Below the pieces are notes generated by a model. The model was not told where the DNA came from. It saw only the letters and a list, made by a program, of their open reading frames with translations, and made no database searches. A stretch of DNA of 34,907 nucleotides from a virus. A program made the position numbers and the translations under genes. The number at the start of each line of letters is the position of its first letter. The first letter of the stretch is position 1. The stretch covers positions 1-34,907 of IMG/VR virus record IMGVR_UViG_3300006802_015037; one strand, written 5' to 3'. Of this stretch, positions 15,086 through 33,493 are shown piece by piece.

Positions 15086-15381
15086 GCATTGACCCAAGAC
15101 CGTTTACGCTGCGCGAATTGGATATGATGGTGCGTGGCAAGCGGTTCGAAGAGTGGACGCACACCGCCCAGATTCTGGCGACGATTGCGAACATTGTCCG
15201 CGACAAGAAGAAGCGGGCACGAGCGTACACGATGGCCGACTTCCACCCTGAGAAGGACAAAATCAAACGCGCAGAACGTGCCAACGCAATCCCCGCCACA
15301 TTCAAAGACTTAAAGAATGCGTTCGGTCTGGACAAGGACCAGTCACCGCAAAGCGTTTCTCCAGATGGAGGCCAGAGTTGA
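15010..15381 (+). CDS. T extension of the tail chaperone (made by -1 frameshift)
   Basis: Frame -1 relative to the G-type gene. After a slip near 15007-15011 it would read about 124 codons including IWGAAGTVGIDPRPFTLREL-DMMVRGKRFEEW-HTA. This is the typical T-domain phrase of siphophage tail chaperones (GxxPxxFTLRELxxM, then a basic W-containing helix). There is no separate convincing ribosome site for the ATG at 15118, which supports expression as a GT fusion. Its last 39 nt overlap the end of the minus-strand gene. Confidence 0.7.
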   Translation, partial: KLDRLNAERSRKGIEKSIWGAAGTVGIDPRPFTLRELDMMVRGKRFEEWTHTAQILATIANIVRDKKKRARAYTMADFHPEKDKIKRAERANAIPATFKDLKNAFGLDKDQSPQSVSPDGGQS

Positions 15382-15834
15382 CGTCTTTAACGTCTCGGCT
15401 GCAGCCGGCCGCATGAATGGCCGCGAGTTAAATCGGCCCTTGGCAAAAGTTCCGTTGCTTGAGCCAAGTACTCGTGACCGAACGGGAGCGGTATCAAGCC
15501 CACGATCATCGAGAGTGGTGTAGAACAATCCGACACCGCCATACTCAAGGTGGCGTATGTTTCTGAACCGGAGTGCAGATGGTCCGATAATAACTTTCTC
15601 CGGCCTGACCGCGAACCAGATATTGTTCCGAAGCGTTCCGACGTGGCTCGATGGGGGGCTACCAGCGGCACTCTTTGATTTACGTTTTCTAATAGAACGC
15701 TTGGCAACCTTTCTGGTGTATGCTCCCATCTTGAAGAGTACTCGCCTTTCAGTTCGATCGATGGCAAGTGTAAGCTTTCGAATCTCGGACGCAAATCGCC
15801 CGGTCGCACGCAAGAAGTTGACACCTCGAACCAT
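15343..15834 (-). CDS. HK97 gp10-like tail completion protein on the minus strand
   Basis: 163 residues with a good ribosome site (GAGGG, 8 nt) before the ATG at 15834. HK97-gp10-type features: a helical N-terminus (RKVAKRSIRKRKSKSAAGSPPSSH), GTLRNNIWFAV, an HLEYGG turn, and the C-terminal RPFMRPAAAETL phrase. It is a neck/tail completion protein. It lies on the opposite strand from all neighbouring tail genes, ends inside the T frame, and its start is 11 bp from the tape-measure start. Any promoter must lie inside the tape-measure gene. Confidence 0.75.
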   Translation of the reverse strand: MVRGVNFLRATGRFASEIRKLTLAIDRTERRVLFKMGAYTRKVAKRSIRKRKSKSAAGSPPSSHVGTLRNNIWFAVRPEKVIIGPSALRFRNIRHLEYGGVGLFYTTLDDRGLDTAPVRSRVLGSSNGTFAKGRFNSRPFMRPAAAETLKTSTLASIWRNALR

Positions 15835-15845
15835 TGGAATCCCTC

Positions 15846-17480
15846 ATGGCAAGATCATCTGCAGGAGCAATTAAAGCCGGCAAGGCTTTCATTGAACTGG
15901 CGATTAACTCAAAGACTGCTATTAAGGAGATTGACAAGTTTGCTCGGTACGTGACAGCGAGAATGCGAAACCTCGGAACAAAAATCACCGCCGTCGGACA
16001 ACAGATTACTCTTCTTGCGGGTGCAATCGCTACGCCAATGGCTTTGTTCGCACGCGAGGCGGCGAATGCAGAAGTTGCCGCGTTGCGGTTCCGAAAGACG
16101 CTTGGAGGGAATGCCGCAGTTGCTGAACAGGTCGCAACGCAGCTGGCAAAGGCTACAGGCTTTAATTTTCGCGACATTCGAAGCGGCATCGTACGCCTGA
16201 ACGCGTTCTTTCGCTCTATGGGGCTTAACGCTAACGACGCAGCAAAGGCGGCACAAGAACTCGTAGGGTCTGCTGCTGACCTTGCTGCGGCTGCTCCAAA
16301 CGTCGCCGATATTGACGACGCAGTCAACCGGCTGGTTTCGGGCCTACGTGGCGAAGAAGCTCTGGAAGAGTTTGCTAACACGAAGCTGGTAGCTCTCAAC
16401 GAAGAACTGGCAAAGGTTGGCAAGAACGTAAAGACAGCAAGCGAACTGGAAAAGCTGGTCGCTCGTTTCGCGTTGATCCAGCGTGACTTTGCGCGAGGAG
16501 GCATTCTCGGCACAGCAGAAGAGACATCCAGCAGCAGGGCTGGTGCAATCCGAAAGTTTGCCTCCGCGTTGAAGGACTTTCGCATTGCAGTCGGTGACGT
16601 TGCTCTAGAGTTTGGAACACAGTTTTTACCAAAACTGAGTCAGGCAATTACGGGCATCGCGCGGCTGGTGAAGACCTCGGCCCCAGCGATAAAACAATTT
16701 CTAAAGATAACATCCGTTGCATTGGCGTTTGGAGTAACGATCCTTGCTCTAAGCGTTGCCCTGTCTACATTGGGTTCAATCTTGGCATTACTAATACCAG
16801 CCGCGATCATCACCGCTTTGGCTGCGTACGTCGAAGGGTGGAAAAGTCTCAAGGATGCGGTCAACGACTTTCATTCCGCGGCTAATGGCGTAAAGCAGAC
16901 GCTTCGAACGCTGTTCAAAGCGATTAAAGTCAAGGACGCTGCAAAACAGTTACAGCTGATCAAGGAGCTGTTCGAAAACGTCTTCGACGAAATTGGCGTA
17001 GTAATTACGCTAAAGATGGCGAAGGTGTTTGCACAGATAGTGGGCATCGCAAATGCGGCATTCAAGAAGATTCCGTTTCTGAACAGAATCCTGCCGGTGC
17101 AGGATGACGTTGGACAGTTCGGCGGAAATATCGAGAAAGCGATCAAGAAAGCACAAGCACGATTTGCTTTCGGCCGCGACTTGATCGCCGCGCGGGCTGA
17201 CAAATTTCTGGCACAGCAGGAAGAGGAAGAGAAGGAAGCGGAAGTAGCGGCCGACAAGTTCCGCGCGGCTGCTGTGAACATCGAAGAGGCTGCGAAAGAC
17301 ATGAAAGCGGCGGCGATCTCAAACGAGACAGCCGCCGCGCGGACGCAACGCTTTTTTCAGTTCGGATCGACAACGGAGGATGTTGAAAACAAACAGCTTC
17401 AAGAACTGAAAGAAATCAACAAAAAGATCGGCCGAGGCGGTCTGGTCGCTGTGCGACTGGGCGCCGCACGCGTCGTCTAA
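15846..17480 (+). CDS. Tail tape measure protein
   Basis: 544 residues from the ATG at 15846; upstream there is only a weak GGA and the gp10-like start on the other strand. Long helical, Ala-rich protein with LGTKITAVGQQITLLAGAIATPM near the start and a hydrophobic region at about 275-325 (SVALAFGVTILALSVALSTL and LLIPAAIITALAAYV), as expected of tape measures. Coiled segments near the end are Glu/Lys-rich. Using the usual 0.15 nm per residue, the tail would be roughly 80 nm. Ends 4 bp into the convergent minus-strand gene. Confidence 0.85.
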   Translation: MARSSAGAIKAGKAFIELAINSKTAIKEIDKFARYVTARMRNLGTKITAVGQQITLLAGAIATPMALFAREAANAEVAALRFRKTLGGNAAVAEQVATQLAKATGFNFRDIRSGIVRLNAFFRSMGLNANDAAKAAQELVGSAADLAAAAPNVADIDDAVNRLVSGLRGEEALEEFANTKLVALNEELAKVGKNVKTASELEKLVARFALIQRDFARGGILGTAEETSSSRAGAIRKFASALKDFRIAVGDVALEFGTQFLPKLSQAITGIARLVKTSAPAIKQFLKITSVALAFGVTILALSVALSTLGSILALLIPAAIITALAAYVEGWKSLKDAVNDFHSAANGVKQTLRTLFKAIKVKDAAKQLQLIKELFENVFDEIGVVITLKMAKVFAQIVGIANAAFKKIPFLNRILPVQDDVGQFGGNIEKAIKKAQARFAFGRDLIAARADKFLAQQEEEEKEAEVAADKFRAAAVNIEEAAKDMKAAAISNETAAARTQRFFQFGSTTEDVENKQLQELKEINKKIGRGGLVAVRLGAARVV

Positions 17481-18880
17481 GGTTGCACAGGTTGCTTCGG
17501 CTGTGCAAACGGCCAGAATCCTTGCTCAGGACTAGCATATGGATTCAAACCTGCCCAATCTGTTTGATTTGCTGTAAACATCAGGAAGCACATTTTGAGC
17601 GGTGAATTGGGATCAATTTCCGGTACGTTGGGATTGATATTGAAATTCCAAATTGGAGGCCCCTGATCTTCCACCAGTGCTCCAGATTCGTCGAGCCACT
17701 GCGGCACATCAACTGGGTCATCTCCGATGTCAAAATCACCGCCGCGAAGTGAGTCATCGATGTCTTTGTACCGAATCCGTTTTTTCTCGATGACTCCGTA
17801 TTTGACAATCCAGAAACGATTATCTGAACCCGGTCGAACTGAACCTTCAGGAACCTGCGGCCCGCTTTCTTTGATCGCTTCCCAGATTTTATAATTTTGC
17901 TTGACGATATCGCCAACATTGTATGATGCGTTCGGATCCCATCCTTCCTGACCCTCGCCTCTGTGATCGACCATTTGGTAGTAACCGACATTTGCAACCA
18001 GACGATGGCCGTTTGGATGCGGAAGGCCAATGCCGGGCAAGGGAAACGCGAGGTTCTTATATTTCATCACATCGAGTGGGTCGTAGATCAAATAGCCTGT
18101 GCCGGCCGGAGTAAATGCGCCATCGGTAATTGAAAGCGTCAGTGAGTGCTCGTAATATTCGATCTCTTGTGGCAGCCCGTTTCCGCCTTGGTCAATTGAG
18201 TTCTGGAACCTTCGAACGAACGGACCAGAGGTAACTGCGTCTTCGATAAAGCCGGCATACCGCGGGAGATCGGATTCGAGATCGCCCGGTTTTATCGTCG
18301 GCGGATACGGATCTGTATATCCAAACACATCTACCGGAAACGCATTGAGTGTGCCGACGAGTGGAACAAGGTCGAGAAAGTCTCGCGATTTCCACTGGTA
18401 CTCGATTACACGATTCTTGAAAACCATCTCCGGCAACGGGTTCATCTGATCGCCGGCCGAATTGATACACGGATTCCCGCTCCAGTCAGCCAGCATTGGT
18501 CTGGAATACTTTTCTGACCGAAGGGTTATCGTAGGCAGGTCGCGTTCGGGGTATTCTGGATCAAAGCGTTCTGGATCATCAGATGTATCGACTTCAATCG
18601 GTTCATTTGAAAAAGTCGCGGTCGCAAACCAGTGAAAACATGCCCCGTCGCCCGCTGGTTGGCCATCAAGACTCCGACAGGTGTACGTCAGGTTGTCTCG
18701 ATAAAGCGTCCCCGGCCCCGGCAAAAAGCGAAGAAAAATTGCATCTTGAATCATGTCTACGGCAGAATCGTAGACGGTATCAGCCACAACGTGATACCGG
18801 ACTTCGAACTCGTCGAAGTCCACGCTTCCCCTGAAAACCTCAGAGCCGTCATGTAATATGCTGGCTGAAACAATTCCCAT
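17477..18880 (-). CDS. Virion-like protein with CBM-like module, minus strand
   Basis: 467 residues; the ATG at 18880 has GGAG 6 nt upstream; a TTG seven codons further up would overlap the plus-strand start at 18901. The N-terminal half is a beta-rich globular protein (FRGSVDFDEFEVRYHVVADTV, SRDFLDLVPLVGT). Near residues 320-360, YNVGDIVKQNYKIWEAIKES, then P and FWIVK, matches the short chitin-type carbohydrate-binding pattern often found in tail proteins. Pro-rich end. It faces both neighbours: convergent with the tape measure and divergent from the next gene. Possibly a tail tip or fibre subunit (inference). Confidence 0.65.
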   Translation of the reverse strand: MGIVSASILHDGSEVFRGSVDFDEFEVRYHVVADTVYDSAVDMIQDAIFLRFLPGPGTLYRDNLTYTCRSLDGQPAGDGACFHWFATATFSNEPIEVDTSDDPERFDPEYPERDLPTITLRSEKYSRPMLADWSGNPCINSAGDQMNPLPEMVFKNRVIEYQWKSRDFLDLVPLVGTLNAFPVDVFGYTDPYPPTIKPGDLESDLPRYAGFIEDAVTSGPFVRRFQNSIDQGGNGLPQEIEYYEHSLTLSITDGAFTPAGTGYLIYDPLDVMKYKNLAFPLPGIGLPHPNGHRLVANVGYYQMVDHRGEGQEGWDPNASYNVGDIVKQNYKIWEAIKESGPQVPEGSVRPGSDNRFWIVKYGVIEKKRIRYKDIDDSLRGGDFDIGDDPVDVPQWLDESGALVEDQGPPIWNFNINPNVPEIDPNSPLKMCFLMFTANQTDWAGLNPYASPEQGFWPFAQPKQPVQP

Positions 18881-18900
18881 CTCAATCTCCGGGTTATCCA

Positions 18901-20571
18901 ATGACTGACGGCTATGTCTTTAAAGATCGAAAAGACGTCGAAAGAGTCAGCAAAGCTGTCAACTGGGTTCACGATCAGTTTAACGAGGAGTCTGCCAAGG
19001 CAATAGACAACAACAGTTCGGACAGGCGCACGACAGCGCCCATTCGACCTGCACGCGTTGTCTGTCGCATTGGCAATGGATGGTACAAGCTTAAGCTTAT
19101 GGATCTTCTTCCGCGAGAAGAGGCCGCGCCGGACGCGATGGAATGCGAGGCAGGCGAACAGGTAGATCACGAAGAATTTGAATCGCTGGCTGAAGAAAAG
19201 TTCATCGCTGGGTATTCACTGTCCAGTCTTGTCAATGATACAGACGTGTTTGTCTGCAGGATCTACGACGGGACACCAAACCGCACTAGCGATCGAGTAA
19301 GATTTATCGAATACGCAGTGCTCTCTTCCGATACTGGTGGAGACCTGACTCTTGGAATGGTCGATGCCTACCTCGGTCGAGGATGGTATCGCGTGAACCT
19401 TGTGGACCTTGCGCCACCCGAGCTGCCGGCAAACGAGAACATTGCTCCACAGGACGAACCGACTCACACGAGAATTGTTCAGCCTGTAGCAGGTTACACA
19501 GAGTGGACATACTCTCAAGCGACTGGAGAATTTACTGCCGGCCAATGCACAGGTGGCAACACAGGATCTTCACCAACGCCCGGACAGCAGCCGAATCCAC
19601 AGGACTATCCCGGAATTCAGGATGGACAGACAGTTACGCTGCCGTGCGTGCTTCCTGACGGCGAAGAATTTGGCAATGCCATTCCGCCTTGCTGGGCAAT
19701 TCAATGTGCATGGTCATGGAACGGGACACAATGGGACAAGCAAGCCAAGGCTCCGGGCGATCCAGTGACGCCGGCCACAGAGCCAAATAACAGCCCTGAT
19801 CTTTATGTTCACGGCGGCCTGCTGTGCAATCCTCCACCAGACCCACCAGAAGGCACTGCCATTGGCACAGCCGCGATTACATTTGGTGAGGCAGCTGACT
19901 GCCAAACTGCTACTCAAAATCAGGTGACATGGACATGGAAAAGCAATCCTCCCGCGACCGAGTACGATCCGGGTGCGTACCCTGCACACTGGACGATGGG
20001 CACCCCATGCGGTGACCCGCCTGATCTCCAGCCACCCGATGAATGGGATGGCGGTGGGTGTGCGGCAGCAGTTCCAGACTTCGACGGGGCGGTTGATGGG
20101 GAGCAGACGACGACTAATTGCTACTTAAACGGTCTCGGTGCGTATGTCGTTGAGAACTTAGACCCGCTTTCTCAGTGTTGCATGCCGGGCGAGGAAGGTG
20201 ATCCTGACAACGTGCCAAGACAATCACCAGTGAAAGCCGATCCGGGCGAAACTCTTCCCATTTTTTACAAAGAACCTGTGCTTGCGTATCAAATTAACAA
20301 GCTAACAGTTACGGGCATTTACGGAGAAACCCTTGAGGGTGCTGCACAACCGGGAACACTTGTCTGGATGCAGACATTCCAGACAGGGCAATACAGCAAC
20401 TTAACAAAATCGGAAACGCATTACGCAATACTGCAATTCCAGAGAGAGGCAATTTCCGTTTCTATTCCGCGTGCGATCCAGTGTTGTGATGACGGCAGTA
20501 TTAAAATCACCGACTATCAGCACATGGTCGAAGGAATTTATTGTGGACAGACGAGCGAACCATGCCCGTAA
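18901..20571 (+). CDS. Cys- and Pro-rich virion protein
   Basis: 556 residues; the ATG at 18901 has no good ribosome site. The first 200 residues hold two similar beta units (RVVCRIGNGWYKLKLMDLLP and MVDAYLGRGWYRVNLVDLAP), an internal repeat. The middle is Pro/Gly/Cys-rich (NPPPDPPEG, CGDPPDLQPPDEWDGGGC), and the end carries QCCMPG and QCCDDG. Trp-rich strands recur (AWSWNGTQWDKQ, WTWKSNPP). It looks like an extracellular, disulfide-stabilised tail/virion component; no named family recognised. Overlaps the next gene by 10 nt. Confidence 0.7.
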   Translation: MTDGYVFKDRKDVERVSKAVNWVHDQFNEESAKAIDNNSSDRRTTAPIRPARVVCRIGNGWYKLKLMDLLPREEAAPDAMECEAGEQVDHEEFESLAEEKFIAGYSLSSLVNDTDVFVCRIYDGTPNRTSDRVRFIEYAVLSSDTGGDLTLGMVDAYLGRGWYRVNLVDLAPPELPANENIAPQDEPTHTRIVQPVAGYTEWTYSQATGEFTAGQCTGGNTGSSPTPGQQPNPQDYPGIQDGQTVTLPCVLPDGEEFGNAIPPCWAIQCAWSWNGTQWDKQAKAPGDPVTPATEPNNSPDLYVHGGLLCNPPPDPPEGTAIGTAAITFGEAADCQTATQNQVTWTWKSNPPATEYDPGAYPAHWTMGTPCGDPPDLQPPDEWDGGGCAAAVPDFDGAVDGEQTTTNCYLNGLGAYVVENLDPLSQCCMPGEEGDPDNVPRQSPVKADPGETLPIFYKEPVLAYQINKLTVTGIYGETLEGAAQPGTLVWMQTFQTGQYSNLTKSETHYAILQFQREAISVSIPRAIQCCDDGSIKITDYQHMVEGIYCGQTSEPCP

Positions 20572-23734: not shown

Positions 23735-23953
23735 GTGCTAGTCCTCGGCCGACGAAAAGACGAAGGGGTCGTTATCGAGACGCCACAAGGCAAGATACAG
23801 ATTTTGATCGCCCGCATAGGTGTTGACCAAGTCCGTATCGGAATTGAGGCACCTAACGAGTTTAAGATACTACGCAACGAGATCGCATACTACGGCGTGC
23901 TAGATGCGATACCTGAACCGAGTCCGACTCTCAAAGTGGTTTCGGACGATTGA
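23735..23953 (+). CDS. csrA: Carbon storage regulator CsrA/RsmA
   Basis: 72 residues from a GTG with AAAGGAGG 5 nt upstream. The full CsrA fold is visible: MLVLGRRKDEGVVIE, IQILIARIGVDQVRIGIEAP, then ILRNEI. The RNA-binding residues known in the family are present (Arg6 in the first strand and the late Arg in ILRNE). The C-terminal tail (PEPSPTLKVVSDD) is longer than minimal CsrA. CsrA binds GGA motifs in leaders of mRNAs. It stands alone between two terminators. A target set in phage or host is not visible but is discussed in the findings. Confidence 0.92.
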   Translation: MLVLGRRKDEGVVIETPQGKIQILIARIGVDQVRIGIEAPNEFKILRNEIAYYGVLDAIPEPSPTLKVVSDD

Positions 23954-26379: not shown

Positions 26380-26591
26380 AGTGCTGTATATGCAACCAAG
26401 AAACCCCTAAAGAGCAAATCCACGTTCAAGATGCAGTGGTTGGCGAAAATCACACTTCTCAAATCATTTATGTATATTGTAGGACTTGCGTAAAGACACA
26501 TCGGGAATCGCAGTTTGATCCTGCGTTTCCTCATCGCGAAGACTTCAGTGTGCCGAAAGCGAGATATGGACTTCGAGAGTCTGAGGGATAA
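26376..26591 (+). CDS. Small zinc-finger protein
   Basis: 71 residues, ATG in an ATGA overlap. MKCCICNQET near the start and YCRTCVKTH at 34-42 form a CxxC...CxxC site. Overlaps the start of the resolvase gene by 26 nt. No specific family recognised. Confidence 0.6.
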   Translation: MKCCICNQETPKEQIHVQDAVVGENHTSQIIYVYCRTCVKTHRESQFDPAFPHREDFSVPKARYGLRESEG

Positions 26592-27069
26592 GACGCGAGG
26601 CATGTACGAAACGGAGGCTGTGGTTGTCCTGACGATACCACAGCCTCCTTCAGTTAATGCCCTGTATGTCGGAAAGCGCGGGGGCGGAAAACGATTGAGC
26701 AACGCTGGCCGCAAGTTCTACACGCATATTTCGAAAGGATGCAAACAGCTTGGAATTAGCGAGCTTAAGCTGGTCGGGAACCTTCGGATTGAGATTCTTG
26801 CTTATCCGTCCAGCTACATGTTTGACACGGCCAACTTCTTAAAAGCAACGCTTGATGCGCTTGAGAAGGGCGGAGTAGTTGCAAACGACAGGAGCTTTCG
26901 CTCGGTCGACATTACACATGTTGACATTGACAAAGAACGACCGCGGCTTGAGTTGCGTATTTTTGAAAAAACGGCGGTCGCGTCCTCAAGTCCGTTGTCC
27001 ACCGTGCCGATAACAGGTAACAGGGGAGACGCCGGGCGTGCCGGCGGCCGGAAACGGTCACCCGTTTGA
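26566..27069 (+). CDS. RusA-like Holliday junction resolvase
   Basis: 167 residues, starting at the ATG at 26566 inside the previous gene. RusA pattern: IPQPPSVNALY (24-34), a helical middle, then FDTANFLKATLDALEKGGVVANDRSF (given in parts: FDTAN at 86-90, LKATLDAL at 92-99, NDRS at 107-110). Asp87 and Asp108 fit the first and last metal ligands; the family's middle Asp (D-x-D-N) is Ala89 here. Resolves recombination or replication junctions before packaging. The last 30 residues (after RIFEK) are low-complexity and may be leader sequence read through. Confidence 0.8.
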   Translation: MDFESLRDKTRGMYETEAVVVLTIPQPPSVNALYVGKRGGGKRLSNAGRKFYTHISKGCKQLGISELKLVGNLRIEILAYPSSYMFDTANFLKATLDALEKGGVVANDRSFRSVDITHVDIDKERPRLELRIFEKTAVASSSPLSTVPITGNRGDAGRAGGRKRSPV

Positions 27070-27090: not shown

Positions 27091-27813
27091 ATGAGAGAAG
27101 TCACCAAGGGGCGACAGCAAAAGCCCCGCAGGGTCATGATCTACGGCGTCGGAGGCGTCGGCAAGTCGACGCTTGCGGCTTCATTTCCAAAACCGCTTTT
27201 CATTGACTTGGAGCACGGCCTCAAGAATATCGACACTCACAGCGTGCAAGTCGAAGACTACCTCGACTTCATGAGTATGTGCGAGGAGCTTTACGACGAT
27301 CACGACTACCGGACGATCGTCGTCGACGCGGCTGACCAGCTGCAACAGTTCGCAGACGCACAGGTTGCAATGCACGCTGGAGTCTCGACTGCAAAACAGG
27401 TGGATTGGGGCAAGGGTATTGACGAGATGGTCCACCTCTTCAACGCTTCGCTCAGTGCCCTCGCTGCGTTGCAGCAACAACGCAACGTGATGATCGTTTT
27501 GATCGCACACGCGGAGGTGAGCCAGTTCAAGGATCCACGGCTTGAGCCGTACGATCGATACCGGCCTCGCCTTCACAAAGACTTGATCGACCCGACTGTT
27601 GAGTGGTGCGACGAAGTTCTGTTCATGAACTACGTTCAAAGCCAAAAAGAAGTCAAGCAGTCACGCGGGAAGACGATCAAGACAACTGCAACAGGCGACC
27701 GGCAGATTTACACTGCCGAAGCGCCAGCTTGGATCGCCAAAAATCGGTGCGGGATGCCCGACGTTATTGAACCGACTTGGGACAGCTACAAGCAGTACGC
27801 TTTTTCCGAGTAA
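27091..27813 (+). CDS. Sak4-like RecA-fold ATPase
   Basis: 240 residues with GGGAGAGAGA before the ATG. Walker A GVGGVGKST (19-27), Walker B TIVVDAAD (75-82). The rest follows the AAA_24 phage nucleotide-binding family: DLEHGLKNID, DYLDFMSMCEEL, a WGKGIDEM helix, MIVLIAHAEV. Such proteins act with an SSB-like partner in phage recombination. The next gene encodes that partner (DUF669), which supports a Sak4-type single-strand annealing role. Start of the replication module. Confidence 0.85.
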   Translation: MREVTKGRQQKPRRVMIYGVGGVGKSTLAASFPKPLFIDLEHGLKNIDTHSVQVEDYLDFMSMCEELYDDHDYRTIVVDAADQLQQFADAQVAMHAGVSTAKQVDWGKGIDEMVHLFNASLSALAALQQQRNVMIVLIAHAEVSQFKDPRLEPYDRYRPRLHKDLIDPTVEWCDEVLFMNYVQSQKEVKQSRGKTIKTTATGDRQIYTAEAPAWIAKNRCGMPDVIEPTWDSYKQYAFSE

Positions 27814-27840
27814 ATGACTTTTTCAAAGAGGTTAAGAACT

Positions 27841-28362
27841 ATGGGATTTGCTGACAGAGCAAAAAAGAATGCCGACGAGCACGGCGATGACAATGAGTTT
27901 CCAGCACCGACGATCATTGCGAACGGGATTTACACCGTTGAAGTCAAGAAGTGCTGGGAAGCAGCAACTGCGAACGGACGCGGCAGGGGTTTGAACATCG
28001 TTCTGCGTATAGTGAGCGGACGCTACGAGGGCGAAGAGTATCACAGTTGGTACGGGACCGAATACGACGGGGATCCGAGTTGGCTCGGCTACCACGGCAA
28101 AATGATTACGGGATTGATTGCCGCGTGTGGAGTAGACCCCGAGGATCCGTCAGACCTCGAAGGATGCATGCTTAAGGCTGAGCTGGTCCAGTTCCGCGAC
28201 AAGAAGAAGCAAGAGACCACTATGCAGGTCAAGCGGGATGGCTTCTACGCGGCGAAGAACGCAACAAAGCGACGGGCGGAGCCTGTGGAGGGTGCCTCAC
28301 GACAGGAGCCGGCAGAGCCGGCGGTCGCGAGCGAGGTGGACGACGAGGACTGTCCTTTCTGA
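27841..28362 (+). CDS. DUF669 single-stranded-DNA-binding-like protein
   Basis: 173 residues; ATG at 27841 with AAAGAGG 9 nt upstream (an ATG at 27814 lacks a site). DUF669 pattern: an N-terminal ANGIYTVEVKKCWEAAT strand, RGLNIVLRIVSGRYEGEEYH, a helix, then LKAELVQFRDKKKQETTMQV. The C-terminus VDDEDCPF mimics the acidic DDDIPF tip of bacterial SSB, which recruits partner proteins. It follows the RecA-fold gene as usual in phage recombination modules. The SSB role is inferred. Confidence 0.75.
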   Translation: MGFADRAKKNADEHGDDNEFPAPTIIANGIYTVEVKKCWEAATANGRGRGLNIVLRIVSGRYEGEEYHSWYGTEYDGDPSWLGYHGKMITGLIAACGVDPEDPSDLEGCMLKAELVQFRDKKKQETTMQVKRDGFYAAKNATKRRAEPVEGASRQEPAEPAVASEVDDEDCPF

Positions 28363-28390
28363 CGCAGCACGACGCTGACCGTTGTTGACT

Positions 28391-28418
28391 GGCGGGGGGC
28401 TTTGGCCTCCCGCCTTTT
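28391..28418 (+). terminator. Terminator hairpin before the helicase gene
   Basis: GGCGGGGGGC (28391-28400) pairs with GCCTCCCGCC (28405-28414; one wobble), loop TTTG, then TTTT (28415-28418). The helicase ribosome site (GAGGGAGAG) is about 10 nt further on and the ATG is at 28442. Confidence 0.75.
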
Positions 28419-28441
28419 GCGTCGATAGAGGGAGAGATTAC

Positions 28442-30109
28442 ATGTTTAAATGTCGCTGGTATCAGAAAGCGGCCATTGAAGAAACTTGGGCTTGGATGCG
28501 TCGGAATCCTGATAAGCATCCAGTAATTGAACTGCCAACCGGATCGGGAAAGTCAATCGTCTTGGCAGAAATGATGCGGCAAGCACTTACACGCTGGGGT
28601 GATAAGCGAAAGGTCCGCGTCTTACTGCTCACGCACCAGAAAGAACTCATCGAGCAGAACCATGCAAAGCTTGTCGCGATGGCTCCAGAGTTGGACATTG
28701 GAATTAACAGTGCCAGCGTTGGAACACGCGATTACACGAGCGATGCGATCTTTGCCGGCATTCAGTCGGTTTACAAAGACGCGGATGCGTTGCTGATGGC
28801 CGGCAAATTTCATTTGGTGTTCGTTGACGAGGCCCACCTCGTGAAGACTCGCGCGGCGGGGATGTACCGAACCTTTCTCGCTGAACTGGAGAAGGCCAAC
28901 CCGACGATTCGGATCATTGGCTTAACGGCTACGCCGTACCGACTCGAAGGAGGACTGGTATATCGCGAGTTCGCTGGTGACGACGAGAAGCTGTTTGACG
29001 ACGTGTCTTACCGCTTGCCAGTGACTGACTTGATAGCCGAGGGCTACGTTGCCCGCCCGCTGAATATCGGATCGAAGTGCTCTGTCAATACGAAGGTCGC
29101 GAAGATTTCGCGAGGTGACTTCGACACAAAAGAAATGACGTCCGAATTCGTCAGCCTGCTGATTGAGCACTTGAGCGCGATACTTAACGTATGCGAAGAA
29201 CACGGCTGCAAGAGCGTCCTGATCTTTGCAACGTCGCTCGACCATGCTTCGGCCGTGACTGAAGCATTACGGTCGATCGACAAGTCGGCTGAGATGGTTG
29301 ACGGAGGTACGCCGAAGAAAGAACGCGAAGATTTGCTGACGCGTTTCCAAAACGGCGATATTCAGTTCATGGTAAATGTGGGCGTTCTGACAACCGGCTT
29401 CGACGCGCCCAACATCGACCTTATCGTCTTGCTGCGTGCAACGGCTTCGCCCGGACTCTACGTACAGATGGTTGGACGCGGCCTGCGCGTGACCGAGACG
29501 AAGAAGGAGTTTTATGTCCTCGACTTTGGAAACAACGTCAGCCGGCATGGGCCGCTGGATGACATCTGTGAAAATGACGAAGGGGATCAAAGCGACAAAA
29601 AAAAGAAACGCGAGGAGAACAAGGCTTGGGAGTGCCCTAATTGTGAGTGCGTCAATGCGAACTGGAAGCTGGACGAGAACGGAAAGAAGGCACGCAACCG
29701 CACTTGCTGGAACTGCGACTACCTGAAGCCCATCTCTGTTCGGGCCAGCGAAGTCGCGGACGATGGCGACCTTCTGGAACGTAGCATATCCGAGTTCCGA
29801 GTGGTCGATATTGACTTCAAGGTATGGACTAAGAAGGGAGAACCAAGTGCACCGAAGACGATCCGCGTCGACTACGTGTGTGGGATGACGACGGAGAGCA
29901 CTTGGAAGTGCCCAGAGCATCGAGGATGGGCACGTTCGAAGTTCGAAGAGTGGTTTTCGCGTGTGCTGCCGAACCACACGATTCCCAACACCGCAGAGGA
30001 AGCTGTCAAAGAGCTTCGAAATAACTCAGAGAGGCTTGTCATACCCGACAAGGTTCTGGTAAAGCCAAAAGCAGGAAGCTCGTTCTTCGACGTCAAAGAG
30101 ATGTGGTGA
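28442..30109 (+). CDS. SF2 DEAH-box helicase with zinc ribbon
   Basis: 555 residues; ATG at 28442 after GAGGGAGAGATTAC. Motif I LPTGSGKS (31-38), motif II DEAH (129-132), motif III LTATP (161-165), and motif VI QMVGRGLRV (342-350). Two CxxC pairs (398-401 and 422-425) form a zinc ribbon in the C-terminal extension, separated from the helicase core by a KKKKR stretch. The family unwinds or translocates on DNA in phage replication. Adjacent to the primase-helicase gene. Confidence 0.9.
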   Translation: MFKCRWYQKAAIEETWAWMRRNPDKHPVIELPTGSGKSIVLAEMMRQALTRWGDKRKVRVLLLTHQKELIEQNHAKLVAMAPELDIGINSASVGTRDYTSDAIFAGIQSVYKDADALLMAGKFHLVFVDEAHLVKTRAAGMYRTFLAELEKANPTIRIIGLTATPYRLEGGLVYREFAGDDEKLFDDVSYRLPVTDLIAEGYVARPLNIGSKCSVNTKVAKISRGDFDTKEMTSEFVSLLIEHLSAILNVCEEHGCKSVLIFATSLDHASAVTEALRSIDKSAEMVDGGTPKKEREDLLTRFQNGDIQFMVNVGVLTTGFDAPNIDLIVLLRATASPGLYVQMVGRGLRVTETKKEFYVLDFGNNVSRHGPLDDICENDEGDQSDKKKKREENKAWECPNCECVNANWKLDENGKKARNRTCWNCDYLKPISVRASEVADDGDLLERSISEFRVVDIDFKVWTKKGEPSAPKTIRVDYVCGMTTESTWKCPEHRGWARSKFEEWFSRVLPNHTIPNTAEEAVKELRNNSERLVIPDKVLVKPKAGSSFFDVKEMW

Positions 30110-30186: not shown

Positions 30187-33100
30187 ATGTTAAAGTCAAA
30201 GATAACTCCTGTCAATTGCTGGGAAGCTTACTCAGAGATTCTGGCTGACAAGGTCTATCGCTACGCTTTCGCCAACGACGTGATCCCGGTCTACCGACAC
30301 GGTGGCTACGCACCGGAGCGATTCGAGGGCGTCACCGACATAGGCGAACGGCGGCGTTTGTTTCGCTCCGTCCTGCTACGTCACTTTAAGGGGCGTTGCT
30401 GCGGCCTGTACCTGCTTGGCGAGGCACCTGACGGCGAGTGTTACGGCCGGTTCCTGTGCTTCGATATCGACGCCAAGCCCGACACGGTACTCGATCACCC
30501 GACACTTCCCCAGTTGAACCTCGAAGCGGCTTGCCAGATCCAAGACATTCTAAAACGGCACGCGGTCAACAGTGTAATTGAGATGTCTGGCCCGAGCGGA
30601 TCGTATCACGTTTGGGCTTTTTTCGATGGGCCGGTGCCCGGCGAAATTCTGTATGGCGTAGCGAAGTACATTGCTTCGCGTGTTGACCGAGCACAGGGAC
30701 GCACGACTGCCAACAAACAGCAGATCGAGGTTTATCCACGGTCTGGGAAGCTGAAGGGCAAGAAAAAAACTGGGAGCCTCATCCGGCTGCCCGGAAAGTA
30801 CAAGGATGTTGACTGGTGGAGCCGATTCGTTGATAGCGACGGAGTCTTTGTGGGCGAAGAGCGCGGGATCCAGTTGTTCATTGAAACGCTCGAAGATCCG
30901 AACCCATTATCCGCGGTCAGCCGCGAGACGACGTTAGTTCTTTCTGCTCTCAAAGAGTTCCCAACCGTTGACATGCGGACAGGAGATCCGATTCCCACAC
31001 CGGAAGACGAGCCAGACTGGTTGCGAGAGATACCGATGCTGGAGCGGTTTGAACGCTGCCAGCAGGCCCATCTGGACAACTACGAAACCGGAGCATGGGA
31101 AAAGCCGGGGCAGGGAGTCCGGCATACGTGGCTCTACAAAGCGGCCATGCAGGCGTGCGTGAACTACGCGATGCTTGATAGCAGTTTGGCGAGGCAATTT
31201 CTTGAGTGGTGGGACAAAGAATTCTGTCAGGGGGAGAATACGAAGGACGACCCCGATCGGCAGATCGCCGACGCCATAGACAACGCGATCGCCGGGCGTG
31301 GGACGAACCAGATCGGCTACGCGTTGATGCCGGAGAACCTTAAGCCACGATTCCCGATCAAGCTATACCTTCATTTGAACGGCAAGCACACGCTCGAAGA
31401 ACTGCGGCAGGTGGCCCATCGGGACGTGCTGTCTGTTGTGAAGTACCCAGACGTACATAAAGGCGTGTGGCTGAACTCGGCGCCGCCGTCGATTGGGAAG
31501 ACGGAGGCTTTCCTGAAGGCGGCTTCCGCGTCCGAAGCTCCTGTGGTGATATCGACGACGACGCACAGCCAAGCAGCGGAGATCGTTCAACGGGCCTACG
31601 GTATCGATCTGTTTTATTCGATTGACAAGTTTCCCAAGCTGACGGTGCTGGGACACTGCGGCGCCGGCGAGAAGCCGAACTGCCACCATCCGCCGATGGC
31701 CGAGGCCGAACAGCTGGGGCTGTCGAAGTTCTACTGCTACGACGGGCACGGCGGATGCCCACACTTCGCCAAGTGCCAAGAAACGTCTGGCATGTACCTG
31801 CACGACTTTGAGCAGGTAAAGGAGATGCGGGTACACGTCTGCACGACGCAGCGTCTGGCACTGCAGGGGTTCGACAAAATAGCCAGCACACGGCTGATGA
31901 GCGGCAAGAAACAGCTTCCCGTGGTGATCATTGACGAGTCACCGGAAGCTGCGTTCAACCCCGTTGTGAGATACACGCTGGTTGAACTTGCACAGGTGCG
32001 AGACTGCTGCGAAGTGGCGATAGCCGACATGGTAAAGCAGCAACGGCTGCACGGATACGACTTCGACGCACCGATCGATTTTCTGCGGATCCTGACGCAA
32101 CACATCGCGGATTGGTTGACGGCCGAAACAAATACCGTTGTCGATCTAGTCCACGTCGTCAGTTCCAAGATTGCTGCTCACACACGCGTGCAGGTGCAGG
32201 GATTCCGACGCACAGCCGCACGGTTTATGATTGACGCGATAGCAGAACGAAAACGGCTGCTTGGCGACGACTGGCAGCCGGTCAACCTTTTTACGCTCTT
32301 GAAACTTTGCGGGCTTCACCCTGCAGATATCGACGATTCAAGATTTCTGAGCGTGTTCAAAGGCGAAAGCGGCGTTCAGATTAACCTGTCAAACGTCGTG
32401 AACCCGGAACAGACTATCCTTTGCACAGACGCGTCCAGCACCCCCGCCACGTTGTCACGCGTCATAGGAAGGGACGTTAGCACCAAAGGCGACAGAGGCC
32501 GTCCCGCGGTCAAAACGCCGGCGATACAGTGGGCGGTCGATAGTGGCCGAAACGGGCGGTCGAAGGAGCGGATGCTTCAACGGTTGAACGGACTGCTCCT
32601 GAACGTAAACGCGCTTGGCTTGTCGCAAAAAGAAATAGGCACGATTGGCCTGATAACGCACCAAACGATTGCGAAGGAAGTTGATGAGCACATTCACCCG
32701 GTCCTGCGGCCGAAGATCCAGATGCTGGATTGGTTCGGCGGCAGCACGACTCGCGGATCCAACGCGTGGACGTCGATGGACCTGCTGATTGTCTGTGCGA
32801 CCTACCGAATGCCCGTCGAGTGTGTCCGAGAGCGACTTGCGTATTCAGACCCCGGCGCGTTGCAGTTCAGCGACCCCAGCTTTGTCGAGATGGTCTGGCA
32901 ACCGACAGCCGGCCAAAAGAAGCGCATCAGCTTTTGGGGGCCGGACCCGAACACTGAGATCGGTGAGGAACAAGTTCGAATGATTCGAGCGGAACTGGAA
33001 CAGTGCCTGCACCGATCCAGAATGTATCTTGAGAACGGAATTCCAGTTTTACTGCTGTCAAAGTACCCGAGTGACTTGCCTGTCTGGGAGCGTATCGAGG

Positions 33101-33327
33101 AAATGCCCAAAGCCGGCAACTACGTTCGAATGACAAAGAACGTCGGCGCGGTTCTGGATGCCCTCGCGGCTGAAGGAGGTAGTGTACAGAGTGACGTACT
33201 TTCGAAGTTGACAGGGATGAAGTTACGGGGCGTGCAGGCCCTGCTGAAGAAGCTTGAAAAGGTTGGATTAGTGTCGAGTTGGGAGCGCGGACACGGCCAT
33301 TTGAGTTGGTCACTGAAAAAAAGCTAG
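30187..33327 (+). CDS. AEP primase fused to XPD/DinG-like helicase
   Basis: 1046 residues; AAAGG upstream of the ATG. N-terminal archaeo-eukaryotic primase: FDID metal site (92-95), SGSYHVW with His141, EVYP (181-184) and SLIRLPG (197-203). Then a P-loop ATPase: APPSIGKT (432-439) and Walker B VVIIDE (579-584). Between them lie Cys491, 499, 517, 524 and 530 with CPHFAKC, the site where XPD/DinG helicases hold an FeS cluster (zinc is possible). Later, GSTTRGSNAW followed by DLLIVCATYR resembles late helicase motifs. The C-terminus (about 985-1046) is a winged-helix-like domain. Likely the replicative primase-helicase; TOTE-type primases are the nearest known relatives of the first domain. Confidence 0.8.
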   Translation: MLKSKITPVNCWEAYSEILADKVYRYAFANDVIPVYRHGGYAPERFEGVTDIGERRRLFRSVLLRHFKGRCCGLYLLGEAPDGECYGRFLCFDIDAKPDTVLDHPTLPQLNLEAACQIQDILKRHAVNSVIEMSGPSGSYHVWAFFDGPVPGEILYGVAKYIASRVDRAQGRTTANKQQIEVYPRSGKLKGKKKTGSLIRLPGKYKDVDWWSRFVDSDGVFVGEERGIQLFIETLEDPNPLSAVSRETTLVLSALKEFPTVDMRTGDPIPTPEDEPDWLREIPMLERFERCQQAHLDNYETGAWEKPGQGVRHTWLYKAAMQACVNYAMLDSSLARQFLEWWDKEFCQGENTKDDPDRQIADAIDNAIAGRGTNQIGYALMPENLKPRFPIKLYLHLNGKHTLEELRQVAHRDVLSVVKYPDVHKGVWLNSAPPSIGKTEAFLKAASASEAPVVISTTTHSQAAEIVQRAYGIDLFYSIDKFPKLTVLGHCGAGEKPNCHHPPMAEAEQLGLSKFYCYDGHGGCPHFAKCQETSGMYLHDFEQVKEMRVHVCTTQRLALQGFDKIASTRLMSGKKQLPVVIIDESPEAAFNPVVRYTLVELAQVRDCCEVAIADMVKQQRLHGYDFDAPIDFLRILTQHIADWLTAETNTVVDLVHVVSSKIAAHTRVQVQGFRRTAARFMIDAIAERKRLLGDDWQPVNLFTLLKLCGLHPADIDDSRFLSVFKGESGVQINLSNVVNPEQTILCTDASSTPATLSRVIGRDVSTKGDRGRPAVKTPAIQWAVDSGRNGRSKERMLQRLNGLLLNVNALGLSQKEIGTIGLITHQTIAKEVDEHIHPVLRPKIQMLDWFGGSTTRGSNAWTSMDLLIVCATYRMPVECVRERLAYSDPGALQFSDPSFVEMVWQPTAGQKKRISFWGPDPNTEIGEEQVRMIRAELEQCLHRSRMYLENGIPVLLLSKYPSDLPVWERIEEMPKAGNYVRMTKNVGAVLDALAAEGGSVQSDVLSKLTGMKLRGVQALLKKLEKVGLVSSWERGHGHLSWSLKKS

Positions 33328-33364: not shown

Positions 33365-33426
33365 ACTTTGTTCACCAGTCAGAAGCAAAATAGTGAACAA
33401 AGTGGTGTAAACAAATAGTGGACAAA
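33365..33426. repeat. AT-rich short repeats (possible origin)
   Basis: ACTTTGTTCAC (33365-33375) is an 11-bp inverted repeat of GTGAACAAAGT (33393-33403). TAGTGAACAAA (33391), a related GTGTAAACAAA (33405) and TAGTGGACAAA (33416) form three direct copies about 12 bp apart. Together with AT-richness and position right after the primase-helicase gene, this resembles initiator binding repeats. Confidence 0.5.
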
Positions 33427-33429
33427 TCT

Positions 33430-33493
33430 TAAGCGCGGCGCACGAACCCTTTAGAGCTATCTCTTTATTTATAGGGTTCGTGCGCCGCGCTTA
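33430..33493. repeat. 21-bp perfect inverted repeat
   Basis: The arm at 33430-33450 (starts TAAGCGCGGCGCACGAACCC) is perfectly complementary to 33473-33493, with a 22-nt AT-rich spacer containing TTTATTTAT. It is the longest perfect inverted repeat noted in the window. As RNA it would be a very stable hairpin (no T run follows, so it is not a plain intrinsic terminator); as DNA it could be a cruciform, origin or resolution site. Confidence 0.9.

Follow-up and report, generated by a model that had tools for sequence, protein, structure and literature searches.

The locus and its gene neighborhood

The window analyzed here is the whole of the IMG/VR virus record IMGVR_UViG_3300006802_015037, a stretch of 34,907 bases classed as linear that contains head genes (terminase, portal, and protease/major head protein) and a replication and recombination cluster, of which the gene under study is the last. 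On the plus strand, this cluster runs from a RusA-like Holliday junction resolvase (26515..27069; phrog_34, E 5.5e-16) through a Sak4-like ssDNA annealing protein (27091..27813; phrog_124, E 1.5e-44), a phage single-strand DNA-binding protein (27814..28362; phrog_378, E 4e-5), and a separate, RadD-like SF2 helicase (28382..30109) to an uninterrupted, ATG-initiated frame of 1046 aa (30187..33327), which the ORF list and domain searches resolve into an AEP primase, a PriCT-like linker, an FeS-type SF2 helicase, and a winged helix. The separate helicase matched the phrog_16 DNA helicases (E 1e-87) and a RadD model at E 1e-89, yet under that model’s own cut-off, and gave no matches as a scan query. 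No DNA polymerase or DnaG gene was found among the window proteins searched, which were a subset of the ORFs of a possibly incomplete record, and no CRISPR or TOTE partner genes were noted in the window, where the surroundings of the primase-helicase gene are phage replication, recombination, and structural genes. Just 3′ of the gene lie two AAATAGTGRACAAA repeats (33388 and 33413; span 33388-33426) and a hairpin (33430-33493) with near-perfect 24-nt arms, a 16-nt loop, no T-run, and a DNA-fold z of −10.6; this segment (33388..33493, not assigned to a strand) is a possible candidate origin, or a terminator.

Several other features of the window were recorded, including a phage-encoded CsrA-like regulator (23735-23953; phrog_9500, E 1e-8) and two long ORFs on the minus strand (15343-15834 and 17477-18901) within a morphogenesis block of plus-strand genes, the former having the look of a tail protein by eye. 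The left arm holds a repeated element at 1210, 2511, 3240, and 4338 (core AACGTACGGGCGCCCGTTGTGCC, up to 86 nt), and GC-rich repeats, including 15-nt units of CGCGCGCTAACCTTT arranged head-to-tail, occupy 1-140 and 830-909.

Domains of the predicted primase-helicase

A preliminary description based on the sequence had read the N-terminal part of the protein as an AEP primase from the motifs FDID, SGSYHVW, and LIRLPG, all of which were located, and had set the presence of an AEP fold there beforehand as a test. The catalytic (Prim-Pol) domain spans aa 8-246 (30208..30924, plus strand), within which Pfam AEP-TOTE (PF22548) matches aa 58-217 (E 4.9e-10, 39.8 bits against a gathering cut-off of 27), and in a PDB sequence search this part of the protein matched only the CRISPR-associated Prim-Pol, CAPP (E 1.4e-6). 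An AF2 model built from an alignment with 15 AEP relatives of viral and bacterial origin had a pLDDT of mostly about 75-93 across aa 8-246, and Foldseek placed CAPP first against it (E 6e-12, TMt 0.80), followed by the LigD polymerase and Prim-PolC; the domain also resembles RT_UG10. Both AEP superfamily motifs, hhDxD and sxH, are present: the metal-binding DxD of FDID (D93 and D95; 30463..30471) and the catalytic histidine of SGSYHVW (H141; 30607..30609) are invariant in the 16 aligned AEPs, and LIRLPG lies at about aa 198-203. D93 and D95 were taken as the counterparts of D177 and D179 of MpCAPP, the DxD aspartates required for activity in that enzyme, in which the double mutant is inactive (PMC8211822). 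The Pfam match, the CAPP sequence and structure matches, and the invariance of D93, D95, and H141 thus support an AEP fold whose active site is intact in the modeled domain, which may prime or polymerize.

Downstream of this domain, aa 305-375 (31099..31311, plus strand) form a probable PriCT-like helical linker, recognized by eye from the pattern GVRH..L..A...; AF2 gives helices here, but with a pLDDT <50, and a Pfam search of the protein returned no PriCT match. A related AEP from the planctomycete phylum (L021) has PriCT_1 downstream of its AEP domain (E 4e-15). As a separate observation, one ORF of another genome of that phylum (L032:147-2228:+) combines, by its motifs, a reverse transcriptase and an AEP-TOTE-like primase.

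The remainder of the protein was originally described as a P-loop ATPase with a cysteine cluster between Walker A and Walker B, followed by a winged helix, and this layout was recovered on the plus strand. Helicase motif I (Walker A; APPSIGKT, 31480..31503, with SIGKT at aa 435-439) contains K438, invariant in the 14 members of the family alignment, and motif II (Walker B; VVIIDES, aa 579-585, 31921..31941) contains D583/E584, which align to DinG D248/E249 and of which E584 is invariant. Between motifs II and III is an insert of 163 residues (31942..32427) at the position of the XPD/DinG Arch domain, which it matches in place and size: the interval measures 145-178 residues in 13 of the 14 members and 354 in the other (L068), compared with 27 residues in DEAD-box proteins and 174-225 in DinGs. 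The motif III-like ILCTDASSTPAT (32407..32442) carries an invariant D748, and a second RecA-like domain (32626..33081) was delimited by family conservation, with the IV-like IGLITHQ, the V-like FGGSTTRGSNAW/DLLIVCATYR, and the VI-like QCLHRSR (Q939, R943). Profile comparison of this second domain with that of DinG gave no match, although residues resembling motifs IV-VI are present. None of the Pfam, PHROG, and NCBIfam families identifies aa 391-980, and AF2 prediction of the helicase part from the single sequence, without an alignment, reached a pLDDT of 35. The C-terminal winged helix (aa 984-1040, 33136..33306) matches MarR_2 below threshold (E 3e-5, 24.5 bits against the Pfam cut-off of 27), and a relative (L045) has an HTH domain (HTH_AsnC-type) above cut-off in the same place.

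The interval from Walker A to Walker B holds six cysteines (491, 499, 517, 524, 530, and 552), and the FeS-type segment (31657..31776, plus strand) comprises C491 or C499 as candidates for the first ligand, of which the profile alignment picks C499, together with C517, C524, and C530. The conserved cluster is therefore given as C499, C517, C524, and C530, within a family pattern of C-x17-31-C-x2-6-C-x5-12-C. Its conservation in homologues, the other test set in advance, bears out the preliminary description: all members covering the region have the four cysteines except L062, which keeps three, the second being replaced by Phe. Positions conserved across the 14-member alignment, in every member that covers them, include K438, C499, C524, C530, E584, D748, G857, and Q939/R943, C517 being substituted in L062 only; the second cysteine of L141 is shifted by a longer spacing, the residues between C517 and C524 numbering six in the window protein, two in most relatives, and five in L141. 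Since the cluster is kept in relatives of about 20% identity, it is not a chance feature.

The XPD/DinG-like placement that had been proposed for the cysteines was likewise found. When the 14-member profile was compared with 177,635 PDB sequences, the best match was archaeal XPD (E 1.1e-7, from Walker A to Walker B), with E. coli DinG (6fwr) at E 7e-4 over DinG 194-250 (from the FeS cysteines to Walker B), other XPDs near 0.01, and generic SF2 proteins (NS3 helicases and RAD25) whose matches, at 5e-5 to 2e-4, were confined to the Walker A region. Alignment of the family by hhalign with a profile of E. coli DinG and planctomycete-phylum DinGs (probability 96, E 2e-9) set C499, C517, C524, and C530 on DinG C120, C194, C199, and C205; with all query cysteines masked the probability was 90 and C524 and C530 still fell on C199 and C205. 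Among the controls, a reversed DinG profile scored 0.2% and a DEAD-box profile 95.6%; because of the latter, generic SF2 similarity is, on these profiles, a large part of the hhalign signal of the first motor domain, and the edge of DinG over DEAD-box is small. Single-sequence matches were weaker and pointed the same way (L043 to DEAD_2, E 0.036; L062 to DinG, E 0.11; L138 to type IV CRISPR DinG, E 1.5e-5). Taken together, the sequence comparisons support an SF2 helicase whose nearest relatives are XPD and DinG. With the XPD/Rad3-DinG 4Fe-4S helicases the family shares Walker A and Walker B, the four cysteines that lie past motif Ia and before motif II, and the large II-III insert, but it differs from them in its fusion to primases and a winged helix, a DESP/HED-type motif II, and a divergent second motor domain. 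The interpretation in the preliminary description largely holds, and for its step from cysteine cluster to iron-sulfur cluster we infer that the cysteines would bind iron (4Fe-4S) rather than zinc.

Relatives of the motor and their fusion partners

About 16 helicase relatives, with 15-24% identity to the window protein, were obtained from genomes of Planctomycetota and Desulfobacterota, solely by six-frame search of whole genomes. A search with the whole window protein against 392 genomes from the phylum of a Phycisphaerae MAG (Planctomycetota) yielded five helicase relatives, the profile of which matched in 11 of these 392 genomes, and a ten-member profile matched in 5 of 297 genomes from the phylum of a Desulfobacteraceae MAG. 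None of 295 genomes from the Bacilli phylum matched, an absence that carries little weight because most of the sampled genomes are very small (those listed measure about 0.7-1.8 Mb). Neither scans of contigs from IMG/VR and GTDB nor tblastn against phages returned helicase relatives, or any close relative with both the AEP and the helicase of the window. In viral contigs, relatives of the AEP have a different ATPase/helicase domain or lack one, so that the presence of the AEP by itself does not predict that of the helicase.

The same motor is recurrently fused to AEPs, to Toprim/DUF3854 primases, and to family A DNA polymerase. The Toprim-related DUF3854 accompanies it in two relatives (L045, E 7e-23; L042, E 6e-20), both adjoined by phage integrases, and Prim-Pol PF09250 is its partner in two others (L138, E 7e-26; L139, E 2e-15). 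DNA_pol_A (PF00476) is joined to it in two genomes of the Desulfobacterota phylum (L140:3752-8335:+, 1528 aa, E 2e-37; L142:120-3101:-, E 4e-52). A primase zinc ribbon in L062 falls under cut-off (E 0.001), and three further members (L043, L044, and L141) have AEP-like motifs by eye, without Pfam support. In a provirus-like region of a planctomycete-phylum genome (L041: 8903-11930, 12122-17855), a Toprim-type helicase gene, split over three frames, is followed by a ParB-methylase and a terminase homologous to those of the window, in an arrangement resembling the window with its ends joined; this gene order suggests that, in related proviruses, a different primase is paired with the same motor. 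The ParB-methylase of that region may contain an intein, as indicated by a weak Pfam match.

Fusions of AEPs to helicases, which the preliminary description had called known, are indeed on record for SF2 helicases in the PrimPol-PV1 supergroup, as the All3500 family (pVOG1685/9714, UL9-like) (PMC5862659), and L019 is a TOTE-like example. The All3500 proteins, which also belong to mobile elements, resemble ours in having a remote SF2 helicase after the AEP and are set apart by description, in that no DinG-type motor is mentioned for them and the Fe-S text of that paper concerns PriL-like domains (PMC5862659). The nearest tested analogues in build are CyRepA1 and CyRepA2, which place a primase-type domain and an SF2-like helicase in one chain: the cyanobacterial CyRepA combines a Toprim-related domain with a DEXDc helicase domain and supports autonomous plasmid replication (PMC10079941), and its DUF3854 domain also occurs in our relatives L045 and L042. 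However, the N-terminus of the window protein is an AEP rather than the DUF3854 of CyRepA1, and CyRepA1 was rejected as a member of the same family, as it has no four-cysteine cluster and its marginal, 0.001-level match is confined to the Walker A region. Marinitoga CAPP shares the AEP fold and catalytic residues but has TPR, RT, or another helicase as its partner and a CRISPR context (PMC8211822). GP55 of lactococcal phage 1706, an SF3 helicase-AEP-PolB protein, is comparable as a phage replicase that combines unwinding and priming in one polypeptide (PMC12205980), but it differs in its SF3 helicase, its own PolB, and its lack of an FeS motor. A 2025 review of DinG-like proteins sorts them into ten subgroups without any mention of primases (PMC11981726). 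In the open-access literature, to which the search was confined, no description of an AEP-FeS helicase fusion was found; with AEP-SF2 fusions already published, ours appears to be a known class of architecture with a motor of FeS type that is undescribed within it.

Proposed role and competing interpretations

We consider it probable, on the sequence features above, that the protein is a primase-helicase for phage replication whose motor is of the XPD/DinG FeS type, and its gene context makes a role as replicase likely. Under this model, the winged helix, perhaps with the AEP/PriCT part, would bring the protein to the phage origin, where an SF2 motor of XPD/DinG build, carrying a 4Fe-4S module in the interval from motif Ia to motif II as well as an Arch-like insert, would separate the strands, presumably with 5′-3′ polarity by analogy with DinG. 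On the strand so exposed, the AEP would synthesize primers, which it may also elongate with dNTPs until the host polymerase takes over. Activity, polarity, origin binding, and the replicative-helicase role are each properties that we infer. Counting against the model are the nearly equal DEAD-box score, the unmatched second motor domain, the six-residue C517-C524 spacing of the window protein, and the failure of the searches to return a close relative with both this AEP and this helicase.

In a rival reading of the same architecture, the four cysteines might instead form a structural zinc module for DNA binding, on a motor that is a UL9/CyRepA-like SF2 helicase rather than a true relative of XPD and DinG. 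Zinc modules also typically show the CxxC-x5-C spacing, DEAD-box profiles match almost equally well, the DinG match is missing for the second motor domain, and Toprim-SF2 replication proteins of CyRepA1 type have no cluster at the equivalent place. The location of the cysteines between motifs Ia and II, a register on the DinG ligands that persists with cysteines masked, XPD as the top PDB match, and an insert at the Arch position nonetheless argue for iron, and we regard the zinc reading as rather unlikely.

Two further readings accept the primase-helicase and reassign its task. The protein could serve recombination or restart rather than origin firing, in which case it would work alongside Sak4, RusA, and the RadD-like helicase in repair or in replication that depends on recombination, comparable to DinG at R-loops. 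Recombination genes do adjoin the primase-helicase gene, the gene next door is a second SF2 helicase, and DinG and XPD have repair roles; however, the motor recurs in replication-type primases and with DNA polymerase A, and CyRepA proteins, which are of similar build, sustain the replication of plasmids (PMC10079941), so that we hold this assignment to be improbable. The affinity of the AEP to PF22548 AEP-TOTE, and its resemblance to CRISPR-associated CAPP and to RT_UG10, would suit a component of a TOTE/CAPP-type defense or conflict system, but the gene sits in a phage replication/recombination module free of noted CRISPR or TOTE partners, and several AEP relatives in viral contigs are, by eye, replication-type AEP-ATPase fusions. 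The defense role was accordingly rejected on gene context and seems to us very improbable.

Phages and plasmids rely for replication mostly on hexameric or UL9-like helicases, and FeS helicases are familiar as repair, transcription, or CRISPR enzymes. Returning to the phage replication primase-helicase, we extend it tentatively, as a proposal we rate slightly short of even, to an undescribed family of FeS SF2 helicases that would serve as the replicative motor of mobile-element replication proteins and be exchanged among AEP primases, Toprim primases, and family A polymerase, with a cluster through which origin opening could be coupled to host-cell redox state. If true, DNA replication in these elements would begin with an iron-sulfur helicase, primases and polymerases joined to their helicase in one chain would become available for study, and the gating of initiation by oxidative state through the cluster would be a testable proposition.
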